From contig NZ_JALRMO010000001.1 in NCBI RefSeq assembly GCF_023276405.1, positions 6,259,001 through 6,323,000 on the forward strand: a stretch of 64,000 nt of DNA, in the 5' to 3' direction. Shown in pieces: positions 27,722 through 44,754 of the stretch (position 1 is the stretch's first letter; each line of letters opens with the position of its first letter). The translations under genes and the position numbers were made by a program. This DNA is from Paenibacillus hamazuiensis (GTDB taxonomy: Bacteria; Bacillota; Bacilli; Paenibacillales; NBRC-103111). Under the pieces are notes generated by a model. That model saw only the letters and a list, made by a program, of their open reading frames with translations, was not told where the DNA came from and did not search any database.

Positions 27722-28781
27722 GGTCCGGCACCACCTTCCTTCCTTTGGCCGCCCGGCGTCCGGCAATCGCCCGGATCCACCGTTCGATCAGGATGCCCGC
27801 TGCGGCGAAATAAATGATGATGGCAATGATCGAATCGGCAATTTCCGGCGGAATTTCCGTCATCGCGTTCATAAAACCTCTTCCCGAATACAGCAGCCCG
27901 AAAAAGACTGCGGAAGCGAGCACGCCGAGCGGAGAGCTCGCGCCCAGCAAAGCTACGGCAATACCGTCAAAACCTTGGCTCGGCAGGATGCCGATCTGGA
28001 TGCTCGACGCATTGCCCGCATACAGCGCGACGCCGCCGAGGCCGGCAAGGGCGCCGGAGATGAGCATCGACAGCACGATGCCGCGGTTGACGGCGATGCC
28101 TGCATATTCAGCGGCATGCCGGTTAAAGCCGACCGCCTTCAGCTCGTAGCCGAGCGTCGTTTTGCCGATCACGAAGGCAATCACGGCGACGGCAGCAAGC
28201 GCGATGAACAAGCCGAGGTTGATGTACGAACCTCCGAACAGGTCGGAAAGGAACGGATTCCTCAGCAGCGCGGCCTCCGGTAGCTGTTTCGACTCCGTTT
28301 CCAGGTAATCGCCTTTGAAATAAGACGGGACGGCATAATAGACCGTCCAATAACATATCCAGTTCATCATGATCGTCGAGACGACCTCGTGTACGTTAAA
28401 CTTCGCTTTCAATATGCCGGGAATCAGACCCCATAGGGCTCCGCCAACCATGCCCGCGACGACCATCAATAGCAGCAGCAGCGCTCTCGGCAGGTCCATC
28501 GTCAGGCCGATCGCCGTCGCACAAAAGCCGCCGAACAGCATTTGCCCGGCCGCCCCGATATTAAACAAGCCGGTGCGGAAAGCGAAGGCCACAGACAGGC
28601 CGGTAAAAATAAGCGGAGTTGCGGTTGCCAGCGTGTTGCCGATTCTTTCCGGGTTTTTGAGGCCTCCCTCGACCAGGAATTTATAGCCCTGCAGCGGATT
28701 GTGGCCGGTGACGGCCATCAGCAGCGCTCCCGCAAGCAGCCCGAGCAGAACGGCAAGAAGCGATTTGACGCTGTTGTTCAT
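27705..28781 (-). CDS. nupP: nucleoside ABC transporter permease, NupP-like
   Basis: A 358-residue permease of the same BPD_transp_2 family (SLLAVLLGLLAGALLMAVTGHNP, FRTGLFNIGAAGQMLFGGFCAT, MLISGALAGLGGVALYAGN). The start ATG overlaps the ATPase gene stop (ATGA), with GAGGAGGG before it, and its end overlaps nupQ, so all three cytoplasmic/membrane components are coupled. It pairs with NupQ to form the translocation channel. Confidence 0.85.
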   Translation of the reverse strand: MNNSVKSLLAVLLGLLAGALLMAVTGHNPLQGYKFLVEGGLKNPERIGNTLATATPLIFTGLSVAFAFRTGLFNIGAAGQMLFGGFCATAIGLTMDLPRALLLLLMVVAGMVGGALWGLIPGILKAKFNVHEVVSTIMMNWICYWTVYYAVPSYFKGDYLETESKQLPEAALLRNPFLSDLFGGSYINLGLFIALAAVAVIAFVIGKTTLGYELKAVGFNRHAAEYAGIAVNRGIVLSMLISGALAGLGGVALYAGNASSIQIGILPSQGFDGIAVALLGASSPLGVLASAVFFGLLYSGRGFMNAMTEIPPEIADSIIAIIIYFAAAGILIERWIRAIAGRRAAKGRKVVPDHVDYP

Positions 28782-30304
28782 GCGATGCCCTCCTCTGTCC
28801 TCAGGCCGGCGATCATCAGTCCCAGCTCCTGTTCGCCCGTTTCCGCAGCCTGCACGATCCCTACGAGCTCCCCGCCATTCAGGACGGCGATCCGATCCGA
28901 TACGTTCAGGATCTCGTCCAGCTCCAACGACACGAGCAGCACCGCTTTTCCGTTATCTCGGTGCTCGATGAGCCGTTTGTGGATGTATTCGATCGAGCCT
29001 ACATCAAGCCCCCGTGTCGGCTGCACGGCGATGAGCAGATCGGGATCGCGCTCCATCTCCCGCCCGATAATCGCCTTCTGCTGGTTGCCGCCGGACAACG
29101 ACCGCGTAATCGAGGAGCCGCCGGTTCCGGAGCGAACGTCGAAGCTGCGGATGATATGATCGGCATGCTTTCGAATGGCCGCCCGCTGAAGCAGGCCGCT
29201 CTTGGAATATGGCGGACGGTTGTACACTTCCAAAATCATGTTGTCCTCCAGCGTGTAATCGAGCACGAGTCCGCGCTTCTGCCGGTCTTCCGGGATATGG
29301 CCAACGCCTCCCTGAATCCGCTCGCGGATGGACAGGCGGGTGATGTCTTGTCCGTTCAGCGAAATGCTTCCGGACTCGACATTCCTCAGACCGGTAATGG
29401 CCTCCACCAGCTCCGTCTGCCCGTTGCCTTCCACACCGGCAATGCCGACGATTTCCCCGGCCCGCACCTCCAGGGAAACTTTCCTCAGCCCCTCGACTCC
29501 TTTGTTGTTCTTCACCACAAGCGACTCCACCCGGAGTACCGTTCGGCCGGGATTGCTCTCCTTTTTGTTCACCTTAAACGTCACCTGCCTGCCGACCATC
29601 ATCTCCGCCATCACCGCTTCGCTCGTGCCGGCGACATCGACGGTTCCGATCATTTTCCCACGGCGGATGACGGTGCAGCGGTCGGCGACCGCCTTGATCT
29701 CCTTCAGCTTGTGCGTGATCAAAATGATCGACTTGCCCTCCCGGATCAGGCTGCGCATAATGCCCTGCAAATCCTCGATTTCCTGGGGCGTGAGCACGGC
29801 GGTCGGTTCGTCGAATATAAGCACCTCCGCGCTTCTGTACAGCATCTTGAGAATTTCGACTCTTTGCTGCATGCCCACGGAAATATCTTCAATTTTCGCA
29901 TACGGATCCACATTGAGGCCGTAACGCGACGACAGCTCCTTGATGCGCCCCGCTGCCGAATCGATATCGAGCACAAGCCCTTTGCGCGGCTCCAGCCCGA
30001 GGATGATGTTCTCGGTGACGGTAAACGTATCGACCAGCTTGAAATGCTGATGCACCATGCCGATGCCGAGCCTGCCCGCCACGTTCGGGTTCGCGATCTT
30101 GACCTCTTTGCCGTTCACCTTGATGACACCGCGGTCCGGCTGGTACATGCCGAACAAAATGCTCATCAGCGTCGACTTGCCCGCTCCGTTTTCACCGAGC
30201 AAAGCGTGAATTTCGCCTTTTTTCAGCGTAAGCGTAATATCGTCGTTGGCGACGATGCCCGGAAACTCCTTGCGAATGTTCAGCATCTCGATGGCGTACT
30301 CCAT
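28778..30304 (-). CDS. nupO: nucleoside ABC transporter ATP-binding protein, NupO-like
   Basis: A 508-residue double ATPase as in sugar/nucleoside importers. The first half has a full Walker A (GENGAGKST), signature ISVGMQQRVEIL and Walker B LIFDEPTAVL. The second half has a divergent Walker A (GVEGNGQTEL), signature LSGGNQQKAIIG and the Walker B-region substitute LLIAVQPTRGLD, as is usual in this family. AAGGAGGGC precedes the ATG. A terminator-like hairpin separates it from the lipoprotein gene upstream, which should lower its expression relative to the binding protein. Confidence 0.88.
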   Translation of the reverse strand: MEYAIEMLNIRKEFPGIVANDDITLTLKKGEIHALLGENGAGKSTLMSILFGMYQPDRGVIKVNGKEVKIANPNVAGRLGIGMVHQHFKLVDTFTVTENIILGLEPRKGLVLDIDSAAGRIKELSSRYGLNVDPYAKIEDISVGMQQRVEILKMLYRSAEVLIFDEPTAVLTPQEIEDLQGIMRSLIREGKSIILITHKLKEIKAVADRCTVIRRGKMIGTVDVAGTSEAVMAEMMVGRQVTFKVNKKESNPGRTVLRVESLVVKNNKGVEGLRKVSLEVRAGEIVGIAGVEGNGQTELVEAITGLRNVESGSISLNGQDITRLSIRERIQGGVGHIPEDRQKRGLVLDYTLEDNMILEVYNRPPYSKSGLLQRAAIRKHADHIIRSFDVRSGTGGSSITRSLSGGNQQKAIIGREMERDPDLLIAVQPTRGLDVGSIEYIHKRLIEHRDNGKAVLLVSLELDEILNVSDRIAVLNGGELVGIVQAAETGEQELGLMIAGLRTEEGIA

Positions 30305-30352
30305 CTTTCGCCCTCCTTATATCGGGTCTCCCCAAAAATCGTTCCCGTACCA

Positions 30353-30386
30353 CAAAAAAAAGACGGAAACGGTCCGTCTTTTTTTG
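30353..30386 (-). terminator. attenuator-like terminator between nupN and nupO
   Basis: AGACGGA and TCCGTCT (30361-30379) form a 7-bp stem flanked by A8 and T7 runs, so it is active in principle in both directions. Placed between the binding-protein gene and the transporter genes, it would reduce read-through so that lipoprotein exceeds membrane components. Confidence 0.8.
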
Positions 30387-30397
30387 TTTTGAACGCA

Positions 30398-31528
30398 TTA
30401 CTTGATCAAGGAGCCTTGCTCGGCGGCGACTTTGATTTCGCCGGATTTGATTTTCGCGGCTACGTCCGCTACCTTTTTCACCGTGTCGTCGCTCAGGTTC
30501 GGGTTTTTGTCCGGAATGCCTACGCCGTCGTTTTTCGAATCCATCGTCAGCGTTTTGCCGCCCGGGAACTTGCCTTCCGCTTCCGCTTTAACCATATCGT
30601 ATGCGGCGTGATCGATCTTCTTCATCGCCGATGTCAGAATGACCGATTTGTCGCCCGAATACACGCCGTCCTTGTATTGGTCTACGTCGACGCCGACGAT
30701 CCAGGCCGTCTTGCCTGCGTTTGCGCGGGTTTTCGCCTCGTTGATGGCGCCTACGCCAACGCCTCCCGCCGCAGCGAAGATGACATTGACGCCGCGGTCG
30801 AACATTTGTGCCGCGAGCTGGCCGCCTGCCGCCACGTTATCGAAGGAACCTTGGTAAATGACGTTTTCCTGCTTGATCGTCAGCTTTGTGCCGAGCTTTT
30901 CATTCGCATAGTTCACGCCCTGCTGGAAGCCCCAGTTGAACTTTTGCACCGGAGGAATGCTCATGCCGCCGATAAAGCCGGCTTGACCTTCCTTGAGCTG
31001 CACCGCCGTAGCAACACCGGCCAAGAACCCTGCCTCGTGCTCCGCGAAGAAGATCGATACGGTGTTCTCCTTCACGACCGGTTTATTGTCCCCGGCATGC
31101 GGCGATCCGTCGATCAGCACGAATTTTGCATCTTTATACTTGTCCTGCGCTTTGAAAATCGACGTCTCGAATTTAAAGCCGGGCGTCACGATAAATTTAA
31201 AGCCGGCATCATACAGATTGCCGATTTCTTTTGTATAGTCGGCCTCGGTGGTGCCGGTGGGTTTCAAATATTTTTTCTCCAGCTTCAATTCGTCGGCCGC
31301 CTTCAAAATCCCTTCCCAGGTGCCCTGGTTGAAGGATTTGTCGTCGATCGTTCCGGCGTCGGTAACCATGCCGACTTTAAACGTTTTGGCCGGCGTGGCG
31401 GCGCCCCCGGAATTGGCCGTGCCCGCTCCCGTTCCCGTGCCGCCTCCTTTATCCGCCGTGCTGGCGCAGCCTGCAAGCAAAGCTATCGACAAGGCGACGC
31501 TCGTTAATACTGTAACCCCTTTTTTCAT
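30398..31528 (-). CDS. nupN: BMP-family nucleoside-binding lipoprotein, NupN-like
   Basis: A 376-residue extracellular lipoprotein with signal peptide and lipobox LLAGC, followed by a Gly/Thr-rich linker. The basic-membrane-protein family signatures are FKVGMVTDAGTIDDKSFNQGTWEG, DAGFKFIVTPGF, AGFIGGMSIPPVQKFNWGFQQG and VIFAAAGGVGVGAINEAK, matching PnrA/BmpA/NupN nucleoside-binding proteins. The ATG at 31528 follows a CAGGAGG site; a longer frame lacks one. First gene of the nupNOPQ-like operon, with a roughly 240-base leader and a candidate promoter upstream. Confidence 0.88.
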   Translation of the reverse strand: MKKGVTVLTSVALSIALLAGCASTADKGGGTGTGAGTANSGGAATPAKTFKVGMVTDAGTIDDKSFNQGTWEGILKAADELKLEKKYLKPTGTTEADYTKEIGNLYDAGFKFIVTPGFKFETSIFKAQDKYKDAKFVLIDGSPHAGDNKPVVKENTVSIFFAEHEAGFLAGVATAVQLKEGQAGFIGGMSIPPVQKFNWGFQQGVNYANEKLGTKLTIKQENVIYQGSFDNVAAGGQLAAQMFDRGVNVIFAAAGGVGVGAINEAKTRANAGKTAWIVGVDVDQYKDGVYSGDKSVILTSAMKKIDHAAYDMVKAEAEGKFPGGKTLTMDSKNDGVGIPDKNPNLSDDTVKKVADVAAKIKSGEIKVAAEQGSLIK

Positions 31529-31897
31529 TCGAAAACCTCCTGATATTAAACTATGTACGTCGAATTTTGGCGAGTCTATAAACAACTATATTCGCTATGA
31601 ATCCAATTTTCAATATTTTACCTAACGTTTTTAACAATATACATATTTTGTGCAAAAAACCGCCGCGACGTCGTGACGCGTACCACCCCAAAGATCAACC
31701 TTTTTCAACCCAAGTTCTATTTTACAAAACAGTTTGACGTGACCTCCTTTCCGGCGAACGGATAGTGTGTCAGTAATTATAACACAAAAAACATCAACGT
31801 CGAAGCACACAGCGTGAAAAACACAATGTAAGGGTTTGCATTTTGTTATATATAATAACATGTGTGCGACATATGAGTCGGAGTCAGCATTGCCTGC
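31529..31897. other. nupN leader and intergenic region
   Basis: On the minus strand a candidate sigma-A promoter (TTCGAC at 31799-31804, 17-base spacer, TATAAT at 31776-31781) implies a 5' leader of about 240 bases. Within it, 31605-31619 (AATTTTCAATATTTT) resembles a degenerate CodY motif with four mismatches. B. subtilis nupNOPQ is CodY-controlled, so this is worth noting but weak. A GGGTGGTAC stretch near 31680-31690 recalls the T-box sequence but lacks the other T-box elements. Confidence 0.5.
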
Positions 31898-36042: not shown

Positions 36043-36073
36043 CAAAAAAAATACCCGCGACATTCGCGGGTAT
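36043..36073 (-). terminator. terminator of the Ugp/TagC-like operon
   Basis: ATACCCGCG and CGCGGGTAT (36051-36073) form a perfect 9-bp stem with a 5-base loop. On the minus strand it is followed by T8, about 17 bases past the TagC-like stop. Confidence 0.85.
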
Positions 36074-36089
36074 ACATCAAACTTCTATT

Positions 36090-37148
36090 TTAATCCTCTT
36101 TATCCTTCTTATGCGACCCTTGCATCCCTTCAATCGCCTCGGCCGGGAGCAGGCGGTCGATCGAATAAATATTCGCCAGCCGGTTCGGCGTAAAATTGGA
36201 CGCGAAGCCGAAGCTCAGCTCCGCCTTCTGCGGATGCTTCACATCCGGCAGGCGAATCGCCAGCCCTTCCGGCTCGCGGAAGGTGAGCGTGTCCCCCGCG
36301 GTGATCAGCTGCTTATCCAGCACCTCGCCCGTTTGCAGATCGACGGCGGTAATGTACGTGTTGCCCACCGGTTCCACCGATCCTCCCGAGCCGTAGGAGT
36401 TGCCTTCGAGCAGGTAGAGGTAACCGCCGTAGGAAGCGAAGCCTTGGAACGTGCCGACCGTCGGCTGCGGCACGTCGGCGATCGGCGTGTAATTGCGCTG
36501 CTTGACATCCTCCAGGTTGTATACGCCGAAACGGAACGCGCCGTTCTTACGGTAACGCATCGTCAGCAGGTCGTTCGCCGGATCGATGTTTACAGTCGTG
36601 CGGTCCGCGCCTTCGATGAGCCGATGTTTTTCCAGCTCTGGGGAATCCTTGGTTAAAATTTTGCCGTTCTCGAACGCGAATCTGGCGATTTGCGTGCCCC
36701 ATCCGCTGCTGCCTTCAGTGACGGCGTCGGTCTCCGTCCACAGATAGGATGTGCCGCCGATCGCTTCCACTCCGATCTGCACCCCATGGCCGAACCCTTT
36801 GAGGAACATGTAGCCGGTCTCGTTTCCTTGCATATCAAGCTCGGTCAACGCCAAGTCGCCGTTTTTATCGCGGTTGGCTCCGCTGACCGCGCCGCTCTCC
36901 CCGGGAAGCTTCTGGCCTCCGGCCATCAGCTGCACCACATAAATGCGCTGATTGACATTGTCGAAAGCAAAGGACTGCAGCACCGTTCCATTGTGGAGCG
37001 CTTTATCGCGAATCAATTCCGCGGCCGGCGCGGATAACACGAACATTTTCGAATGCAGAGCGGACGGCTCTGCACCGGCGGCCGGAACGGAAAACGGGAG
37101 CAAGCTCAGAATGGCAATGCTTGCTATATGTTTAACAAAACGACGCAT
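36090..37148 (-). CDS. secreted TagC/DinC-like beta-propeller-type protein
   Basis: A 352-residue exported protein; the ATG at 37148 follows GGGAGG and begins a signal peptide (HIASIAILSLLPFSVPAAGAEP). The mature part has repeated beta-rich stretches (LQSFAFDNVNQRIYVVQLM, GDLALTELDMQGNETGYMFLKGFGHGVQIGVE, TVNIDPANDLLTMRYRKNG, TFQGFASYGGYLYLLEGNSY) that recall B. subtilis TagC (DinC) of the teichoic-acid locus and phage tail proteins related to it. It is last in an operon with a glycerophosphodiesterase and a Ugp-like importer, which fits a role at wall teichoic acid. Biochemical activity unknown; family call by memory of the pattern. Confidence 0.6.
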   Translation of the reverse strand: MRRFVKHIASIAILSLLPFSVPAAGAEPSALHSKMFVLSAPAAELIRDKALHNGTVLQSFAFDNVNQRIYVVQLMAGGQKLPGESGAVSGANRDKNGDLALTELDMQGNETGYMFLKGFGHGVQIGVEAIGGTSYLWTETDAVTEGSSGWGTQIARFAFENGKILTKDSPELEKHRLIEGADRTTVNIDPANDLLTMRYRKNGAFRFGVYNLEDVKQRNYTPIADVPQPTVGTFQGFASYGGYLYLLEGNSYGSGGSVEPVGNTYITAVDLQTGEVLDKQLITAGDTLTFREPEGLAIRLPDVKHPQKAELSFGFASNFTPNRLANIYSIDRLLPAEAIEGMQGSHKKDKED

Positions 37149-37171
37149 ACTCAACCAACCTCCCACATCGA

Positions 37172-37936
37172 TTAACTTCGGGTGATTTGCCCGCGAATTT
37201 TCATGGCCGGAAACGGGTTGTTGCAGGTCATCAAAGTTGCGCCGCAGCCTATCGAATAATAAACCTGCTGATCGACGTCCGGACAGTAACACCAGGTCAA
37301 GAGGCCCATGTCCTGAAACTCCTTCACCCGCGCCGGGGTGAGCAGCTTCATGCTCATCGCTACCGCCCACATTTTGGAATAAGTGCCGTTTTCGCCGGTA
37401 TCAAAATTGTACATCGCTTCCCCCGGGAACCCTTGCGTCTTCAAGCCGTACGTATCGTGCATGTAGGCGATAATCTCCGCATCGAAGCAGGTGAACACGC
37501 AGCGCGGCAAGTACCCGTATTCCTTCAGCATCGACACCGCTTTATCGACCGCTTCCTGGGCATCCGGGCTTGGCTTGACCTCCACATTCAGCAGCACCTC
37601 GGGATAGGCCCGCAGCAGGTCGCAAAGCTCCTCGAACGTCGGAATTTTCAGTCCTTCAAACGGTTTGCCGAACCAGCCGCCCGCATCCAGCTGCTTCAGC
37701 TCGGAAACGGTGAGGTCGCCCACCTTGCCGCTGCCGTTGGTCGTCCGGTCCACCGTCTCATCGTGGATCACCACGACGACTCCGTCCTTGGAGAGGCGAA
37801 GGTCGAACTCCAGCATATCGGCGCCGGCTTCAAGCGCCTCGTGGAAAGCAAGCAGCGTATTTTCGGGATAATCGCATTTGAGCCCCCTGTGGGCGGCTAC
37901 CACGAGAGTGGGATCGGTTTTCAGACGTTCGATCAT
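37172..37936 (-). CDS. glycerophosphodiester phosphodiesterase (UgpQ/GlpQ type)
   Basis: A 254-residue cytoplasmic enzyme (no signal peptide) that splits glycerophosphodiesters into glycerol-3-phosphate and an alcohol. The catalytic set is present: His16-Arg17 (AAHRG), PENT, Glu43 and Asp45 ([12 protein letters not shown]) and His58 ([13 protein letters not shown]); EVKP near residue 120 completes the metal site. It sits directly after the substrate-binding protein of a Ugp-like importer (23 bases) and before the TagC-like gene, so it should hydrolyse imported diesters. Lack of a signal makes it UgpQ-like and not an exported teichoicase. Confidence 0.88.
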
Positions 37937-37959
37937 GGAGTAACCTTCCTTTCGTTACA

Positions 37960-39288
37960 TTACTGCTTCAAAATCCGCTCGGTTTCTTTCTTGAACGTAT
38001 CCAGCGTGGACGCGATGTCTTTGTTGTCGTACATGATCGCCTGGATCGCCTTGAGGAACTCCTGGTTCACCTGCGTCCAGTTGACGTGTTTATTCGTGTC
38101 CACCGCATACTGAAGCTGATCATACGCAACTTTGCGCGCCGGCTGCTTCGCCCACAGATCTTTCATCTGCTGGGACTCGACCATTTTTTTCGTGAACGGA
38201 AGATATCCGGAATCGAGCACAAACTGCAGAGCACCCTTGGAGTCGGTCATAGCCCAGTTCAAAAACTCCCAAGCCGCCTGTTTGTTTTTGGAGCCTGCCA
38301 TCATCGCCACGTTGGCTCCGCCGGTCGGGTTCGCATAAACCTGGTCCATCGGCATAAACGCCGTAACGTATTCGAACTTGGCGTTATCGCTCAAACTGCC
38401 GATAACTCCCGTCGACTGGAACATCATGCCGATCTTGCCGCTCGTGAACATCGTGTTGACGATATTGCCGGAGTCCTGCGCCGGCGGGTAGTACAAGGCA
38501 CCGGTGCTTTGCATATCCTTCAAAAATTGGAATACTTTCACGCCTTCCCCGCCTGCGAATCCGATCGATTTGCCGGCATCGTCGAAAAACTTGCCCTTCG
38601 CTTCGGTGATCATTGCGATCGGATACCAGGTATCGTACGGCATGCTGAGGCCGTAGCGCTTATATTCGTTGCCTTCCTTGACGACCAGTGCATTGGCGAC
38701 CTTTTTCAGATCGTCCCACGTCTTCGGAACAGCAAGGCCTTTCTCGTCGAGCATTGTCTTGTTGATATGCAAAATCGGGGTGGACCGGTTGAACGGCAGC
38801 GAGACGAGCTTTTTATTGAAGGTCGAATGCCCCATGAGACCCGGAGTAAAGTCACTTTCGCTCAGGCCGGACTTTTTCATATACGGGTTCAGGTCTTCCA
38901 AAACGTCGGAATCGGCGAACATTTGCACATAAGCGCGCTCCAGCATCGCGACATCCGGCTCGCTTTTGGCGGCGACCGCCTGCTGAAGCTTGGTCACCAT
39001 CTCATCGTAGGAGCCTTGGAACGTGCCGACGACCTCCACCTTGCTTTGCGATTCGTTGAAACGCTTGATCATCGCATCGATATATTCGCCGTTTTTCCCT
39101 CCCAGCGAGTGCCAGAATTGGACGGTGACCTTGCCCCCCGAGCCGGACCCGGACGATGCCGCAGGTGCGGGGGTCTGGGCGGAAGAAGCTCCGGTACCGC
39201 CTCCGGATTGCTCCTGACCGCCACCGCAGCCCGCAAGCACGCCGGACAACATCGCTGTAGCCATTAATACGGTCGAAAATTTTTTCAT
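37960..39288 (-). CDS. extracellular solute-binding lipoprotein, UgpB-like
   Basis: A 442-residue lipoprotein (signal peptide, lipobox VLAGC) of the family 1 binding proteins. KVTVQFWHSLGGKNGEYIDAMIKRFNESQ, VTKLQQAVAAKSEPDVAMLE, VSLPFNRSTPILHINKTML and NPTGGANVAMMAGSKNKQAAWEFLNW match UgpB-type proteins; the WHSLGG and FNRSTP elements are the parts that contact glycerol-phosphate headgroups in UgpB. It belongs to an operon with two permeases, an ATPase and a glycerophosphodiesterase, which strengthens the call. A different oligosaccharide ligand cannot be excluded. Confidence 0.8.
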   Translation of the reverse strand: MKKFSTVLMATAMLSGVLAGCGGGQEQSGGGTGASSAQTPAPAASSGSGSGGKVTVQFWHSLGGKNGEYIDAMIKRFNESQSKVEVVGTFQGSYDEMVTKLQQAVAAKSEPDVAMLERAYVQMFADSDVLEDLNPYMKKSGLSESDFTPGLMGHSTFNKKLVSLPFNRSTPILHINKTMLDEKGLAVPKTWDDLKKVANALVVKEGNEYKRYGLSMPYDTWYPIAMITEAKGKFFDDAGKSIGFAGGEGVKVFQFLKDMQSTGALYYPPAQDSGNIVNTMFTSGKIGMMFQSTGVIGSLSDNAKFEYVTAFMPMDQVYANPTGGANVAMMAGSKNKQAAWEFLNWAMTDSKGALQFVLDSGYLPFTKKMVESQQMKDLWAKQPARKVAYDQLQYAVDTNKHVNWTQVNQEFLKAIQAIMYDNKDIASTLDTFKKETERILKQ

Positions 39289-39317
39289 TACGTGTGACCT
39301 CCATTTTATGATATGAA

Positions 39318-40148
39318 TTATTTAATACCCGAATAAACAAACGCGCGAACGATTTGCTTGGAAGCAAACACATACACGATCAGAATCGGCACGACCAGAA
39401 CGACGTTGCCTGCCATAATGACATGCCAGTTCGAAATGCCCTCGGTTTCCCGTAACATCGCAATTCCCATCGTCAGCGGACGAACCCCGGCGGAATCCGT
39501 CATCACCAGCGGCCAGAAGTAATCGTTCCAGTGGCTGACGAAGCTGAACAGCGCGATGGTGGCGAGCGCCGGCATCGACATCGGGATCATGATTTTGCGG
39601 ATAATTTTGAACTCGCCGGCATTATCCAATCGGGCCGATTCGATGATTTCCTGCGGAATCTGCATAAAATACTGGCGCAGCAGGAAAATCCCGAAAGCGT
39701 TGGACATGAAAGGGATGATCTGCGGCAGCAGCGTTTTGATAAGCCCCCAGTCGGCAAGCATCAGATACACCGGGATGAAGGTGACCTGGCCGGGAATCAT
39801 AAACGCCAGCAGTACCATCGAAAACAATATTTCTTTGCCGAAAAACCGGTATTTCGCAAACGAATAGGCGGCCGGAATCATCACGATCATCTGCAGAACG
39901 ATGATTGAAAACGTGATGATGACGGAATTTTTCGCATAGGTCAAAAAAGGCCCCGCATTCATCGCGGTTACAAAGTTCATCCATTGCGGCGATGCCGGAA
40001 TCCAGGTCGGAGGAAACCGAAGCGTCTCCTGCAGCGTTTGCAAAGAGGTGGAAATCATCCATAAAAACGGGAAAACGAACACCAGTAAAACGATCGCCTT
40101 CAGAAGAAACTCCAGCGTGCGCCTCACTTGCTTCATTTCAAATGTCAC
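39318..40148 (-). CDS. ABC sugar/glycerol-phosphate permease, UgpE-like
   Basis: A 276-residue inner-membrane permease with six helices (IVLLVFVFPFLWMISTSLQ) and the EAA loop in EIIESARLDNAGEFKIIRKIMIPMSMP. It begins at GTG 40148 behind GGGGGAAG; an ATG four codons later is an alternative. It forms the channel with the upstream UgpA-like partner. The gap to it is 36 bases. Confidence 0.85.
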   Translation of the reverse strand: MTFEMKQVRRTLEFLLKAIVLLVFVFPFLWMISTSLQTLQETLRFPPTWIPASPQWMNFVTAMNAGPFLTYAKNSVIITFSIIVLQMIVMIPAAYSFAKYRFFGKEILFSMVLLAFMIPGQVTFIPVYLMLADWGLIKTLLPQIIPFMSNAFGIFLLRQYFMQIPQEIIESARLDNAGEFKIIRKIMIPMSMPALATIALFSFVSHWNDYFWPLVMTDSAGVRPLTMGIAMLRETEGISNWHVIMAGNVVLVVPILIVYVFASKQIVRAFVYSGIK

Positions 40149-40184
40149 AGAGTTTTCTTCCCCCCTTGTCGTGGTCGATTGGGC

Positions 40185-41063
40185 TTATTGATAGTGCACC
40201 TTTTTGGACAACAATCGGAAGTAGATGAAGGTCAGAAGCGCAATGATGGCCATCAGGACTACCCCGGTTGCGGAAGCATAACCGATGCTGTTCGTTCTGA
40301 ATTCGTAGATGTAATAAACGAGTGTCGTTGTGGCGCCGTTCGGGCCGCCGCCGGTCATGATTTTCACGGTATCGAACACCTTGAAGGAGCCGATCGTCAT
40401 AATGATCAGGATGAAAAAGAGCTGAGGCGAAATAAGCGGCAGCGTAATCTTGAAAAACATCTTGGACTTGCTGGCGTTATCCAGCGCCGCCGCCTCGTAG
40501 ATGCTCGGCGGTATGCTTTGCAGCGCCGCCACGATAATGAGCGTATAGTAGCCGATATTGTGCCACACCGACACGATAATGATGGAGATCATCGCCGTCT
40601 TCGAGCTTTGCAGCCACTGTGATGTCGGCAGACCGACCGATTTCAGCAAAAAGTTGAGGATGCCGTGACTCGGCTCCATCAGCCACATCCATACGAGTGC
40701 GATAGAGACGATGGAGATGATGTGCGGAGTGAAGATGCCCGCCTGCACGACTGCGTTAAATCTGCCTTTTTTGTTCAACCACACCGCGATGAGCAGAGAG
40801 ATGGCCATGGTCAGTACGACGACCCCTACCGTGTAAACGACTGTATTTGCCAGCGTGCGGTAAAAATCTTCGCGTGTAAAAATTTGCGTGAAATTGTCCA
40901 GCCCGATAAATTTGCTCTTGTCCTTGTTGAGCAGGTTGTATTTGTAGAAGCTTAATTTAATTAAATAAAGCACCGGGTACATGACAAACAGGACAATTCC
41001 TGTCATAGCGGGCAAAACCATCACGTACGGACGAATCCGTTCCCATATAAGTTTTTTATCCAT
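40185..41063 (-). CDS. ABC sugar/glycerol-phosphate permease, UgpA-like
   Basis: A 292-residue permease with six helices (VLPAMTGIVLFVMYPVLYLIKLS) and the EAA loop SIYEAAALDNASKSKMFFKITLPLISP. The Ugp-type stretch FTREDFYRTLANTVVYT is present. Its start overlaps the end of the ATPase gene by 8 bases. It works as a heterodimer with the UgpE-like permease. Confidence 0.85.
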   Translation of the reverse strand: MDKKLIWERIRPYVMVLPAMTGIVLFVMYPVLYLIKLSFYKYNLLNKDKSKFIGLDNFTQIFTREDFYRTLANTVVYTVGVVVLTMAISLLIAVWLNKKGRFNAVVQAGIFTPHIISIVSIALVWMWLMEPSHGILNFLLKSVGLPTSQWLQSSKTAMISIIIVSVWHNIGYYTLIIVAALQSIPPSIYEAAALDNASKSKMFFKITLPLISPQLFFILIIMTIGSFKVFDTVKIMTGGGPNGATTTLVYYIYEFRTNSIGYASATGVVLMAIIALLTFIYFRLLSKKVHYQ

Positions 41064-42108
41064 GGCTCATCCCTCTGAGCGCCCGCAAATATTCGCCGTA
41101 ACGTGCATCGCCGCTGTCGACGCGTTTCTCATCCGGTCCGAAGAAGTAGATCTTGTCCGCGTCGACGCCGACGTACACGATCTGGTCCACGGAAAATAAA
41201 TCCTCGGTGCACTTGATCATAAACGAATGCCCGCCCGTGCGAACCTGGTAAATCGTTTCCGATCCGAGCATTTCCCGCGTGACGATCTCCCCGCGCACGG
41301 TATAGAACTTATCTCCGGGCTCTGTGGATAACACGGCGCTCTCCGGGCGAAAACCGAACTTCACTCCGCCTTCTCCAAGCTCCGCCACATTCATCGGCGG
41401 CACCCCGATAAACTGGGCGGCGAACAGATTGCTCGGGCTGCGGTAAATCGTCTCCGGCGGCGCCTCCTGCTGAATTTGCCCGCGGTTCATCAGCACGATC
41501 GTATCGGCCATGGACATCGCCTCCACCTGGTCGTGAGTTACGTATACGAACGTCGTACCGAGCTTCTTGTGCATTTCGATCAGCTCGATGCGCATCTGAA
41601 CCCGCAGCTTGGCATCGAGGTTGGAAAGCGGCTCATCCATCAGAAACACCGAAGGTTTCTTCACCATGGCGCGGGCCAAGGCGACGCGCTGCCGCTGTCC
41701 GCCGGACAACGTCGACGGCTTGCGGTCCAGGTAATCGCGCAGTCCGACGGTTTCGCTGATGCTTTCGACGAGACGGGTTCTTTCCTCTTGGGGAACTTTA
41801 TTGTTTTTCAGGCCGAATTCAATATTTTCCCTGACCGACATCGTCGGATAGATCGCATAGTTTTGAAATACCATCGCCACTCCCCTTTGTCCGGGGGCGA
41901 TGCGCGTAACGTCTTTGCCGCCGATAAGAACCGATCCCGAGGTTTGCTGGTCAAGCCCGGCGATCATGCGCAGGAGGGTCGTTTTCCCGCAGCCGGAAGG
42001 GCCTACCAGTACGGTGAATTTGCCGTCCTCGATCTTGAGGTCCAAATCTTTGATGATGACGTTGCCGCCAAACGACTGCGTCACTTTTACGAACTCAATT
42101 GACGCCAA
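41056..42108 (-). CDS. ABC transporter ATPase, UgpC/MsmX type
   Basis: A 350-residue ATPase with Walker A GPSGCGKTT, Q-loop FQNYAIYP, signature LSGGQRQRVALARAM, Walker B SVFLMDEPLSNLD and the switch His in VTHDQVEAM, then a TOBE-type C-terminal regulatory region (FGFRPESAVL). The start is TTG 42108 with AAGGAGG (42116-42122) seven bases before; no ATG fits. A dedicated ATPase is notable, because many Firmicute sugar importers share MsmX. It is the first gene of the six-gene operon, and a four-hexamer Pho-box-like array lies 80-118 bases upstream. Confidence 0.87.
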   Translation of the reverse strand: MASIEFVKVTQSFGGNVIIKDLDLKIEDGKFTVLVGPSGCGKTTLLRMIAGLDQQTSGSVLIGGKDVTRIAPGQRGVAMVFQNYAIYPTMSVRENIEFGLKNNKVPQEERTRLVESISETVGLRDYLDRKPSTLSGGQRQRVALARAMVKKPSVFLMDEPLSNLDAKLRVQMRIELIEMHKKLGTTFVYVTHDQVEAMSMADTIVLMNRGQIQQEAPPETIYRSPSNLFAAQFIGVPPMNVAELGEGGVKFGFRPESAVLSTEPGDKFYTVRGEIVTREMLGSETIYQVRTGGHSFMIKCTEDLFSVDQIVYVGVDADKIYFFGPDEKRVDSGDARYGEYLRALRGMSHG

Positions 42109-42187
42109 GAGCAGTCCTCCTTCTGCAATTTCCAAGTTTTCACATTGGAAAACTTTGAATTTTACTTTGTCCAGAATAGCTTGGCAT

Positions 42188-42226
42188 TGTTTTCCGAATG
42201 TTACCCGAATGTGAAGATTAGGTAAA
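42188..42226 (-). promoter_or_regulatory. candidate PhoP box upstream of the ugp-like operon
   Basis: On the minus strand four hexamers follow each other at exact 11-bp spacing: TTTACC, TTCACA, GTAACA and AAAACA, separated by 5 bases (TAATC, TTCGG, TTCGG). B. subtilis PhoP binds direct repeats of TT(A/C/T)A(C/T)A with this periodicity. A -10-like TATTCT begins 9 bases after the last hexamer, the position expected for PhoP activation. The match is 6/6 for one, 5/6 for two and 4/6 for the last. PhoP itself is not in the window. Confidence 0.7.
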
Positions 42227-42299
42227 GATCAATGTATGCGCTTCCATTTCATCTGCGATGCCCATCGCCCTCCATTAACAACAGCCGGGTTTTATGATA

Positions 42300-42350
42300 C
42301 AATCCTAAGTATCGACTTCCACTGTGTCACCAGTGAAAGTCGAGGATTGT
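42300..42350. terminator. large hairpin at the end of the TarJ-like gene
   Basis: CAATCCT pairs with AGGATTG, and inside it CGACTTCCACTG pairs with CAGTGAAAGTCG (one mismatch) around a 6-base loop. It spans the TarJ-like stop codon. The T7 run lies on the plus-strand side, so as a minus-strand terminator it is not classical. Confidence 0.4.
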
Positions 42351-43421
42351 TTTTTTCCAGTCCCGGTGAGCCATGGCAGATTCCAAAGCGCCAGCAAGGT
42401 CGTCTGCCGTGCTCACCACCGTATATTTTTCCGGAATGAGTTTTCTGAGCGTGTTCTGACATTCCGGTTGTTCCATCACCTTCAGCACATCCTCGAAGTC
42501 TCGAATCGAGCTGCGGCTGCTGCCGTGGATCGTAATCCCTTTCTCCAGCACGTCCCGCGTATTGATCGGCACATGCTCCTCGCTGACGCCCATCGCCACG
42601 AGATGACCTCCGGGCCTCAAGATATCGATCCCCTGATTAATTGCACTTTCGCTGAACCTTCCGCCCGTGCACTCCATCACAACGTCGACTTTCCAGCCGG
42701 CCTTGAAATCGTAGCTCTGCACCATTTCCGTCTCGGCAAAATCGAATTGATCCAGCTTCTCCCGAATGGCACCGAACACAATGAGCCGGTCCTTGCCGAC
42801 GCCAAACGCATGGTGCAGCATCGCTGCGGTCAAATAGCCGACCGGCCCGTCGCCGAATACCGCGGCGCTGCCTTTATCCAGCAGATGGCTGATTCCTCTC
42901 GCCGCCCGGTACGATACGCTGCACAGTTCCGCGAGCACGGCAATCTCATCAGGGATTGATGAAGGAACCGGAATCGCGCAAGCTTCGGGAATGACAAGCC
43001 TGCTTTGGGCGATCCCGTCGAAGCCGCTGCCCATAAATTGCGAGCGGTAGCAGTAGTTGTCTTCAATTTCGTTTCGGCATGCCGGGCAGCATTCTTCGGG
43101 AGGGATATCTTGGAGCAGGTATCCGGGCAAATTCGGAACGACGACAACTCTCTCTCCTTTGGGGAGCTTGGATGAGGCGCTTTCCGCGATCGTCCCAATT
43201 CCTTCATGCAGCAGCGCCATCGGCAGTTTTTTCGCAAGCACTTCCGGCTTGCGCATGCCTCCGAAGTAGCGAAGGTCGGCGTGGCAGATGCTGGCGATAG
43301 TAGGCTCCACCGCGACATAACCGCTGCGCAGCTCCCTTTCTACAATCACCTCTTGAACCTCGCGCGGTTGGGTCAACCGCCATGTTCGCGATTTCACGGT
43401 GCCGGTTGTTGAGCTTGCCAC
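42327..43421 (-). CDS. TarJ-like zinc alcohol dehydrogenase, ribitol-5-phosphate dehydrogenase
   Basis: A 364-residue medium-chain dehydrogenase. It follows staphylococcal TarJ closely in pattern: ASICHADLRYFGGMRK, KLPMALLHEGIGTI (zinc-ligand HE), VVVVPNLPG, YCYRSQFMGSGFDGIAQ, then FGDGPVGYLTAAML nucleotide fold and AINQGIDILRPGGHLVAMGVSE with NTRDVLEKGITIHGSSRSS. TarJ interconverts ribulose-5-phosphate and ribitol-5-phosphate. A Cys lobe (ECCPACRN, NYC) for structural zinc is present here. The GTG at 43421 is chosen for the CGGAGG site; no tarI cytidylyltransferase is adjacent. Placed next to a DeoR regulator and a Ugp-like operon it may act catabolically on released ribitol phosphate. Confidence 0.78.
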   Translation of the reverse strand: MASSTTGTVKSRTWRLTQPREVQEVIVERELRSGYVAVEPTIASICHADLRYFGGMRKPEVLAKKLPMALLHEGIGTIAESASSKLPKGERVVVVPNLPGYLLQDIPPEECCPACRNEIEDNYCYRSQFMGSGFDGIAQSRLVIPEACAIPVPSSIPDEIAVLAELCSVSYRAARGISHLLDKGSAAVFGDGPVGYLTAAMLHHAFGVGKDRLIVFGAIREKLDQFDFAETEMVQSYDFKAGWKVDVVMECTGGRFSESAINQGIDILRPGGHLVAMGVSEEHVPINTRDVLEKGITIHGSSRSSIRDFEDVLKVMEQPECQNTLRKLIPEKYTVVSTADDLAGALESAMAHRDWKKTILDFHW

Positions 43422-43504
43422 TAACAGAAACACCTCCGTATGTTATTCGTAAAAGTATATGAATTTCCGGCCGCCGAAGCGGTCGCGAAAGCTTCACCGA
43501 AGGG

Positions 43505-44266
43505 TCAGGCAAGAAGCACGTTGATGCCGGCGTCGCGAAACGGCTTGGCCTCGTATTCCGGCAGCTCCTTGTTCGTAATTAACGTATGAATGGCCGAATT
43601 CGGCGCGACCGTGTGCAGCGACAGCTTGCCGATCTTCGTTTCGTCGGCCACGACGATCACTTCCTGCGCGGCGCCGATCATTCCCTGTTTGGCCGTCACA
43701 AGCTGGGCTTCGGGATGCATGAGGCCATGCTTCGGATGAATGGCCGGCGTGCCGATGAACGCTTTGGACACGTGCAGCGACCGCAGCACCTGATCGGTAA
43801 ACATTCCGTTCAGCATGTAGCTGGAAGGATACAGCTCCCCTCCGGTTACCGTCACTTTCACTCCCGGCGCATCGCGCAGCTCGGCCGCCACGTTGATGTC
43901 GTTGGTCACTACCGTCAGATTCGAGCGATGGACCAGGTTTTTGGCGATGTGCAGCGTCGTTGTGCCGGAGTCGATGATGATATGCTCGCCGTCCTCGACC
44001 AGATTGGCCGCCAGCTTGCCGATGCGCATTTTCTGCTCGAGCTGCGCATGCGAACGCTCGTTAAACGGCGGCTCGTTATGCGTCAGCTGCTCCACAATGA
44101 CTCCGCCGTGCGTTCGTTTGAGCAGTCCTTCCTGCTCAAGCTCCGCCAAATCCCGGCGAATGGTCGCTTCATGCACGTCGAATTCGACGGCCAAAGCCAC
44201 CACGGAAGCGACACGGTGCTGCCTGACATGCTCCACGATTCTCAGCTTTCTTTCTGCCGCCAACAC
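43505..44266 (-). CDS. DeoR-family transcriptional regulator
   Basis: A 253-residue repressor. The N-terminal HTH reads MLAAERKLRIVEHVRQHRVASVVALAVEFDVHEATIRRDLAELEQEGLLKRTHGG (in separate helices), and the C-terminal sugar-phosphate sensor contains DSGTTTLHIAKNL and VVADETKIGK. The GTG at 44266 aligns with the usual MLxxER start and lies nine bases after AGGGG; a GTG nine bases earlier abuts that site. It is followed after 83 bases by the TarJ-like gene. DeoR proteins respond to phosphorylated sugars or polyols, so ribitol- or glycerol-phosphate is a plausible inducer. Confidence 0.88.
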   Translation of the reverse strand: MLAAERKLRIVEHVRQHRVASVVALAVEFDVHEATIRRDLAELEQEGLLKRTHGGVIVEQLTHNEPPFNERSHAQLEQKMRIGKLAANLVEDGEHIIIDSGTTTLHIAKNLVHRSNLTVVTNDINVAAELRDAPGVKVTVTGGELYPSSYMLNGMFTDQVLRSLHVSKAFIGTPAIHPKHGLMHPEAQLVTAKQGMIGAAQEVIVVADETKIGKLSLHTVAPNSAIHTLITNKELPEYEAKPFRDAGINVLLA

Positions 44267-44754
44267 TTGCGTCACCCCTCACCCGCAGAAACAAACATCA
44301 AAATCGCTTCTTTTTGTTTATTTTATGTTCATTTATGCTCGTATTACATCTTTAGAGTAACGCCATACTGTCAATCTTGTCAATATGCTTTTATTTAAAA
44401 GGGGCACGTACTGCGTATTTTCAAATTCATTTGCGCAAAAATAAACATTTCATGGCGCGATGCCGCGCGTCTTGGTATGAAAACTGGCGAAAAAAACGCC
44501 GCCAGGTCCTTTATTAGTGCTATTTGTCCGTTTGTTGGGAGTAGCGGGGGAGGTTCTGCCCGCTGCTTGCGGTTGAAAATAGAAACGCCGGGCCTTATGG
44601 GTTATACTGGAAATCGGCAATAATGAATTGCGTAATTCAAGGAGGCTTCTGCAGAGCCTCCTTGAAAAACAAAATGGATGGGGGAAGTTATGAAAAATGA
44701 AGTAAGTTGGAGATGATCAATGAAATTATGATGCCGCGGCCGCTCCCCGTTATG
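44267..44754. other. 488-base intergenic region with AT-rich deoR leader and hairpin
   Basis: The left part, about 44310-44345, contains TTTATTTTATG-TTCATTTATG repeats that could be a DeoR-type operator for the deoR gene. The middle has no coding potential. The right part carries a perfect hairpin (separate entry) and a short frame of eight codons starting near 44690 that I do not regard as a gene. Confidence 0.4.
44636..44666. repeat. perfect 12-bp inverted repeat
   Basis: TTCAAGGAGGCT and AGCCTCCTTGAA flank a 7-base loop. The stem sequesters a GGAGG motif. Neither side has a strong T-run, so it is not an obvious terminator. Role unknown. Confidence 0.6.

Follow-up and report, generated by a model that had tools for sequence, protein, structure and literature searches.

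Genetic organization of the locus

The 64,000-nucleotide stretch of the Paenibacillus hamazuiensis genome studied here (contig NZ_JALRMO010000001.1, positions 6,259,001 to 6,323,000; this whole stretch is called the window) contains eight consecutive minus-strand genes, running from position 44275 down to 36090 within the 8.8-Mb genome of this soil bacterium from the Paenibacillus group. In the direction of transcription they encode a DeoR regulator, a TarJ-family dehydrogenase, the ATPase and two permeases of an ATP-binding cassette (ABC) importer, a lipoprotein solute-binding protein, a glycerophosphodiester phosphodiesterase (GDPD), and a secreted PF21311 protein, referred to below as TagC-like (Table 1). 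Gene calls and Pfam matches place every gene named in the initial annotation, which was made from the DNA letters and a list of their open reading frames, where that annotation had put it. The start of the DeoR gene is GTG at 44275, or GTG at 44266 going by homology. From the importer to the TagC-like gene the spacing is tight, with an 8-bp overlap first and gaps of 23–36 bp thereafter; transcription probably proceeds in two units, DeoR-TarJ and importer-GDPD-TagC. Literature searches returned no description of this gene set.

Table 1. Genes and predicted elements of the locus and one further gene pair (positions in the window)
Feature	Position	Strand	Basis
DeoR-family regulator	43505..44275	-	PF00455 (DeoR_C) 1.7e-50; PF08220
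TarJ-family zinc-dependent dehydrogenase	42327..43421	-	ADH_N/ADH_zinc_N; PDB 6xh9 E 7e-58; start GTG 43421
ABC importer ATPase, UgpC/MsmX-like	41056..42108	-	PF00005 (ABC_tran) and TOBE_2; start TTG 42108
ABC permease, UgpA-like	40185..41063	-	PF00528 (BPD_transp_1); top NCBIfam UgpA 4.8e-50, below cut-off
ABC permease, UgpE-like	39318..40148	-	PF00528 (BPD_transp_1); top NCBIfam UgpE 3.7e-35, below cut-off
UgpB-like lipoprotein	37960..39288	-	SBP_bac_8 5.5e-45; best PDB 9lff UgpB 1.9e-36
Cytosolic GDPD	37172..37936	-	PF03009 7.2e-39; best PDB 2pz0 8e-34
Secreted TagC-like five-bladed beta-propeller	36090..37148	-	PF21311 (Phage_RBD_prop) 1.8e-16; apparent signal peptide; start 37148
Putative DeoR operator	44315..44340	-	GAGCATAAATGAACATAAAATAAACA; repeats shared with orthologous deoR promoters
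Candidate sigma-A promoter of deoR-tarJ	44354..44383	-	TTGACA ... TTACTCT; sequence
Cre-like (CcpA) site	42233..42247	-	ATGGAAGCGCATACA, 0 mismatches to WTGNAARCGNWWWCA; sequence
Predicted PhoP-box array	42188..42226	-	TTTACC-N5-TTCACA-N5-GTAACA-N5-AAAACA, 11-bp period; upstream of ATPase
Candidate -10 elements	42159..42178	-	TATTCT and TAAAAT, downstream of array; sequence
Terminator-like hairpin and T run	36044..36071	-	3' of TagC-like gene; sequence
PnrA/BMP-family lipoprotein and double-domain ABC ATPase	28778-31585	-	

The dehydrogenase and the wall-polymer genes of the host

The dehydrogenase finds its best PDB match in Staphylococcus aureus TarJ (6xh9), the runner-up reaching E 1e-12. 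The two enzymes are 38% identical, and the metal-binding and catalytic residues C46, H72, E73, and E165 are conserved. Eighty relatives, taken from 84,980 species genomes, were sorted by gene context: an importer with a GDPD or TagC-like gene (23, or 24 with the window), a GDPD only (8), an AraB-type kinase with or without a major facilitator superfamily (MFS) transporter and DeoR (16), a mannose-type phosphotransferase system (PTS; 19), TarI/TagF (8), and none of these (6). In the maximum-likelihood tree of the resulting 81 sequences, a branch with a support of 88, under the 95 mark, separates the TarI/TagF-linked enzymes, among them S. aureus TarJ, from all enzymes with catabolic contexts; the window enzyme lies on the catabolic side, sister to biosynthetic TarJ. 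Its clade includes the PTS-linked enzyme of Lacticaseibacillus chiayiensis (52% identity), and the Lacticaseibacillus PTS loci are laid out like the published D-ribitol pathway, with an apparent ribulose-phosphate 3-epimerase gene next. The enzyme is probably a ribitol-5-phosphate (pentitol-phosphate) 2-dehydrogenase of this catabolic branch. The TarJ-like ribitol-5-phosphate dehydrogenase of the initial annotation thus keeps its family but belongs to a catabolic sister clade, not to biosynthetic TarJ.

The whole 8.8-Mb genome encodes no PF04464 protein (TagB/TagF/TarL) and no TarI, with IspD and one weak IspD-like match as the only hits to the latter; ribitol teichoic acid is therefore not synthesized by the known route. 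A single TagA-type glycosyltransferase gene is present. The absence of tarI and tagF, previously remarked on for the surroundings of the locus, thus extends to the entire genome, and the earlier preference for catabolism over synthesis gains from it as well as from the position of the enzyme outside the TarI/TagF-linked clade. Two AraB homologs are encoded away from the locus: one in an apparent ara operon, the other adjoining an apparent L-fucose isomerase gene (neighbor names read by eye).

TarJ paralogs also occur in other settings. Six loci of Staphylococcus and Mammaliicoccus (L202, L203, L204, L205, L207, and L210) combine one with an AraB-type kinase, an MFS transporter, and DeoR, and are probable pentitol utilization loci distinct from tarIJL. 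In a Bacillus subtilis strain (L184:7984-10059), a catabolic-clade TarJ paralog lies beside DeoR, with no transporter of known types nearby.

The importer and its binding protein

By its Pfam domains the importer is a complete CUT1 system, comprising an ATPase with a TOBE domain, two permeases, and a solute-binding protein. The best NCBIfam models for the four subunits are UgpC, UgpA, UgpE, and UgpB, yet all scores fall below the curated cut-offs (UgpC, PRK11650, 382 against 432 bits; UgpA 171 against 335; UgpE 122 against 297; UgpB 125 against 411). "Ugp-like", the term already used in the initial annotation for a complete importer, is therefore the right label, and "Ugp" would be too much.

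In UgpB from Phaeobacter, the phosphate is held by Tyr64, Ser143, Ser266, and Tyr342, while the glycerol hydroxyls are bound by Glu88, Gly303, and Arg393 and the glycerol is clamped by Trp188 and Trp191 (PMC12718374). The Tyr/Ser set is also found in glycerophosphocholine- and dinucleotide-binding relatives, but not in glucose-binding ones (PMC12718374). These residues were mapped using a family alignment of 18 orthologs and a profile alignment to 9lff and 4aq4, and what follows on the pocket is drawn from sequence alignment only. The phosphate tetrad corresponds to Tyr94, Ser169, Ser292, and Tyr362, all invariant or nearly so; Glu88 and Gly303 correspond to the invariant Glu117 and Gly324, and Arg393 is outside the aligned part. 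At the clamp positions, the two tryptophans are replaced by Arg211 (invariant) and Leu214 (variable). Retention of the tetrad together with loss of the tryptophan clamp favors a phosphate ester larger than, or other than, glycerol-3-phosphate, and a phosphodiester is the favored ligand, as would suit a binding protein of the phosphodiester type. A preference for plain sugars, named earlier as an outcome that would speak against a role in phosphate scavenging, appears unlikely.

The phosphodiesterase and the TagC-like propeller

The GDPD retains the HR...EFD...HD motif in an alignment to 2pz0 and has no apparent signal peptide. It misses the cut-off of the UgpQ equivalog model in NCBIfam (PRK09454; 125.6 against 264 bits). 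In seven related loci (L059:9750-10586, L061, L074, L078, L079, L082, and L084), a divergent type of GDPD takes the place of the usual one.

The TagC-like protein matches PF21311 with 60.9 bits against a gathering cut-off of 23.7, which together with its apparent signal peptide bears out the secreted TagC-like product described for this operon. A sequence-only search found nothing convincing in the PDB, although profile and fold searches did match. The polar residues H121, E128, R198, R200, E248, R291, and E294 of the protein are invariant. The AlphaFold model, built on a 16-sequence alignment, is a five-bladed propeller (pLDDT 84, pTM 0.82). Its top folds are the receptor-binding proteins (RBPs) of the staphylococcal phages phi11, 80alpha, and P68 and of phage NF5 (E ~1e-13 or better, the next being 3e-6). 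The P68, 80alpha, and NF5 proteins superpose with Z scores of 23-30 and 2.5-2.7 Å over 253-264 residues; the phi11 RBP has Z 28.9 with a longer alignment, and other propellers come next at Z 18.6. The platform of the phi11 RBP is the likely site for the N-acetylglucosamine (GlcNAc) of ribitol wall teichoic acid (PMC4901313). A secreted stand-alone propeller of this predicted fold, encoded in such an operon, suggests polymer binding.

One relative (L065:8489-11599) encodes three tandem TagC-like propellers, two of them in one 683-aa frame, between other GDPD and solute-binding protein genes.

Conservation of the gene set

Of 104 genomes of the family, 24 encode the TagC-like protein and 38 the dehydrogenase (E 1e-40 or better); 23 of the 24 have both (hypergeometric P 4e-12, relatedness ignored). 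The order DeoR-TarJ-(ATPase)-permeases-binding protein-GDPD-(TagC) recurs in many Paenibacillaceae loci, and orthologs of the DeoR regulator (79-89% identical) are present in most loci of the importer type. Several loci without an adjacent importer keep the TarJ-family gene and a GDPD together, the latter often of the divergent type. Brevibacillus centrosporus has the complete set with an AraB-type ribulokinase between GDPD and TagC, while Fictibacillus and Siminovitchia have reordered sets. Given the conserved order and the co-occurrence of TagC-like protein and dehydrogenase, the arrangement is not due to chance; the comparison of Paenibacillaceae genomes proposed in the initial annotation thus turned out in favor of a conserved gene set.

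Predicted phosphate and carbon control

The predicted array upstream of the ATPase gene has four hexamers at an 11-bp repeat, which is the architecture of the Bacillus PhoP box. Scored against TT[ACT]ACA-like hexamers, it matches 20 of 24 consensus letters, the top value among ~128,000 window positions on both strands (shuffle p 0.003, which is the floor of 300 shuffles). Genome-wide, a three-hexamer pattern with at most two mismatches has 32 sites, the locus array included, versus 13 for the reversed control. Among the genes behind the other sites are phnF/phnD and genes for a PhoB/PhoP-type response regulator, secreted nucleotidases (two 5'-nucleotidases), a calcineurin-type phosphoesterase, and a diglucosyl-diacylglycerol-synthase-like protein, as would be expected of a Pho regulon. 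The strongest arrays of the host genome score 23/24 (8492027-8492076, L111) and 22/24 (7251121-7251159, L116), and no Pho gene was identified downstream of either.

Arrays with at least 18 of 24 letters are present at 7 of 15 orthologous AbcA-type promoters, that of the window among them, versus 2 of 66 others (Fisher P 5e-5, uncorrected for relatedness). The array is absent where the gap between the TarJ and ATPase genes is short or the ATPase is missing, and at this locus no PhoP box was found upstream of deoR or tarJ. The importer operon is probably under phosphate control, as judged from these predicted sites, and such control is lineage-specific across the orthologous promoters compared. 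PhoP control as a general rule for the module was rejected, since the short-gap and ATPase-less loci have no array. The "phosphate-starvation locus" of the initial annotation is thus backed by the array upstream of the importer, but such control is confined to some lineages; DeoR and CcpA-type sites are commoner.

Fifteen of the 24 importer operons are preceded by a cre-like (catabolite-responsive element) site with no more than one mismatch, against 0.26 expected. Orthologous DeoR promoters share direct repeats such as GAGCATAAATGAACA, and the deoR promoter is the one place in the host genome with an exact match to GARCAWWAAYGAACA. Repression by these two regulators, DeoR and CcpA, is a typical feature of carbon catabolism. 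Relatives without a PhoP array retain sites of both kinds. Carbon use is therefore probably a further role, and the locus probably serves carbon as well as phosphate.

Downstream of the candidate -10 elements, ahead of the ATPase gene, lies a perfect inverted repeat, AAGTTTTC-CAATGT-GAAAACTT (42134-42155, minus strand), possibly an operator or a leader hairpin. Elsewhere in the window, the PnrA/BMP-family lipoprotein and double-domain ATPase form a probable nucleoside importer.

Proposed function and alternatives

Taken together, the locus is read with reasonable, though far from full, confidence as a catabolic, phosphate-scavenging module for polyol phosphodiesters containing ribitol phosphate, glycerol phosphate, or both, most likely fragments of teichoic acid (or of a similar ribitol-phosphate polymer) from other Gram-positive bacteria. 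The secreted propeller would bind the polymer and possibly cut it or help its release. Small phosphodiesters would then enter through the UgpB-like lipoprotein and the importer, consistent with the retained phosphate residues and the lost glycerol-3-phosphate clamp. In the cytosol, the GDPD would split the diesters into a polyol phosphate and an alcohol, as is expected for its family, and the TarJ-family enzyme would oxidize ribitol-5-phosphate to D-ribulose-5-phosphate, which would enter the pentose phosphate pathway. Ribitol-5-phosphate might arise directly or through phosphorylation by a ribulokinase-type kinase, encoded within the operon in some relatives; this AraB-type enzyme would handle ribitol freed as the alcohol, or ribulose. 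Glycerol-3-phosphate would pass into glycolysis or lipid synthesis. Control would be exerted, according to the predicted sites, by DeoR at its own promoter and, upstream of the importer operon, by a CcpA-type cre and (in the host and some relatives) the PhoP-box array.

A more specific scenario can be offered tentatively. A bacterium without canonical wall teichoic acid might feed on the ribitol teichoic acid of its neighbors, with a phage-RBP-like secreted propeller capturing or cutting the polymer, a remodeled UgpB pocket importing ribitol phosphodiesters, a catabolic TarJ paralog delivering the product to the pentose phosphate pathway, and PhoP, CcpA, and DeoR jointly in control.

Several observations weigh against the scavenging role. 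A shared propeller fold shows no function; five-bladed propellers of other kinds act as sugar hydrolases or are unrelated. Some operons that are complete in other respects lack the TagC-like gene, which in a few genomes lies at another place. For the binding protein, the AlphaFold model is poor (pLDDT 55), and the pocket cannot be checked on it. PhoP boxes are lacking at about half of the ATPase-containing orthologous loci and at all ATPase-less ones. GDPD enzymes as a rule need a glycerol moiety; in poly(ribitol phosphate), glycerol is confined to the linkage unit, which leaves the exact diester unclear. Either the GDPD takes ribitol diesters, or the true substrate would be a mixed glycerol-ribitol phosphodiester.

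This glycerol specificity also suits an ordinary Ugp-UgpQ system for phospholipid-derived glycerophosphodiesters (glycerophosphocholine, -ethanolamine, or -inositol), with the TarJ-family and TagC-like genes serving otherwise. Such a system is unlikely, although the phosphate tetrad would accommodate any glycerophosphodiester, PhoP control fits, and the solved structures nearest to the binding protein are UgpB and the mycobacterial glycerophosphocholine-binding UgpB. It would not account for the TarJ-family gene staying with the GDPD where no importer is adjacent, nor for its co-occurrence with the TagC-like gene, and the ribulokinase in the operon of some relatives points to a pentitol.

Rather improbable is the turnover of a surface polymer of the host itself (a secondary wall polymer of glycerol or ribitol phosphate, or lipoteichoic acid), in the manner of B. 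subtilis GlpQ/PhoD under phosphate starvation. PhoP control, a secreted propeller that could act on the own wall, and the TagA-type gene agree with it, but the lack of any TagB/TagF/TarL member and of TarI implies that no canonical polyol-phosphate wall teichoic acid is made; lipoteichoic acid or a polymer of another kind may still be present. The initial annotation had left open whether the teichoic acid was the cell's own or came from neighbors; with no canonical polymerase in the organism, the former is the weaker option.

A CUT1 importer for a plain sugar or polyol, next to a GDPD present for another reason, is very improbable given four phosphate-coordinating residues that are invariant or nearly so in the orthologs and absent from glucose-binding proteins, a GDPD as the next gene in most loci, and the PhoP box, even though CUT1 importers are very common in Paenibacillus, carbon operons typically have cre sites and a DeoR regulator, and the cut-offs of the Ugp models are missed. 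Teichoic acid biosynthesis, with the locus supplying ribitol-5-phosphate for CDP-ribitol as the TarJ family membership and the TagC name might suggest, is rejected, as the genome has neither TarI nor TagB/TagF/TarL and in the phylogeny the enzyme falls outside the clade encoded next to tarI/tagF.

Scavenging from neighboring cells would be of some consequence, as teichoic acids store much of the phosphate of Gram-positive soil bacteria. In the teichoic acid scavenging known so far, glycerol teichoic acids are cut outside the cell, and we know of no described route by which ribitol-phosphate diesters are imported and then digested. The module, found widely in Paenibacillaceae, suggests a catabolic role for "orphan" TarJ genes and, for TagC-like proteins, a function that can be tested.

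Comparison with known systems

With E. coli UgpABCE and UgpQ and related systems, the locus shares the importer architecture, the phosphate tetrad, a cytosolic GDPD within the operon, and (here predicted) phosphate-starvation control. It differs from them in subunits that score below the cut-offs, in the Arg211/Leu214 pair replacing the tryptophan clamp, and in having a pentitol-phosphate dehydrogenase, a DeoR regulator, and a secreted propeller. TarJ, TarI, and TarL of ribitol teichoic acid synthesis include a dehydrogenase of the same family, whereas the enzyme of the locus belongs to the sister clade and its genome has none of the partner genes.

D-ribitol utilization in Lacticaseibacillus casei involves a mannose-type PTS and catabolic enzymes (Bourand et al. 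2013, as cited in PMC6717177). The likeness lies in the dehydrogenase clade common to the locus and the PTS-linked L. chiayiensis enzyme; the PTS takes up free ribitol, while the locus has an ABC importer and a GDPD for phosphodiesters.

GlpQ scavenging is also known in S. aureus. The likeness proposed to GlpQ/PhoD systems is the use of teichoic acids to supply phosphate when cells are starved of it; those systems rely on secreted hydrolases of the GDPD or calcineurin type that act on glycerol phosphate, whereas the locus has a cytosolic GDPD and an importer and implies ribitol phosphate. For the B. subtilis teichoicases GlpQ and PhoD, such use during phosphate starvation is attributed to Myers 2016, as cited in PMC7793946.

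Phage phi11 requires GlcNAc on ribitol wall teichoic acid for adsorption. The RBP platforms of phi11, 80alpha, and P68 (PDB ID: 5efv, 6v8i, and 6iab) share the five-bladed propeller with the TagC-like model (Z 29-30 and ~2.5 Å over ~262 residues for P68 and 80alpha). In contrast to these phage proteins, the TagC-like protein has no stem or tower; it is a stand-alone, secreted propeller encoded in a nutrient operon.

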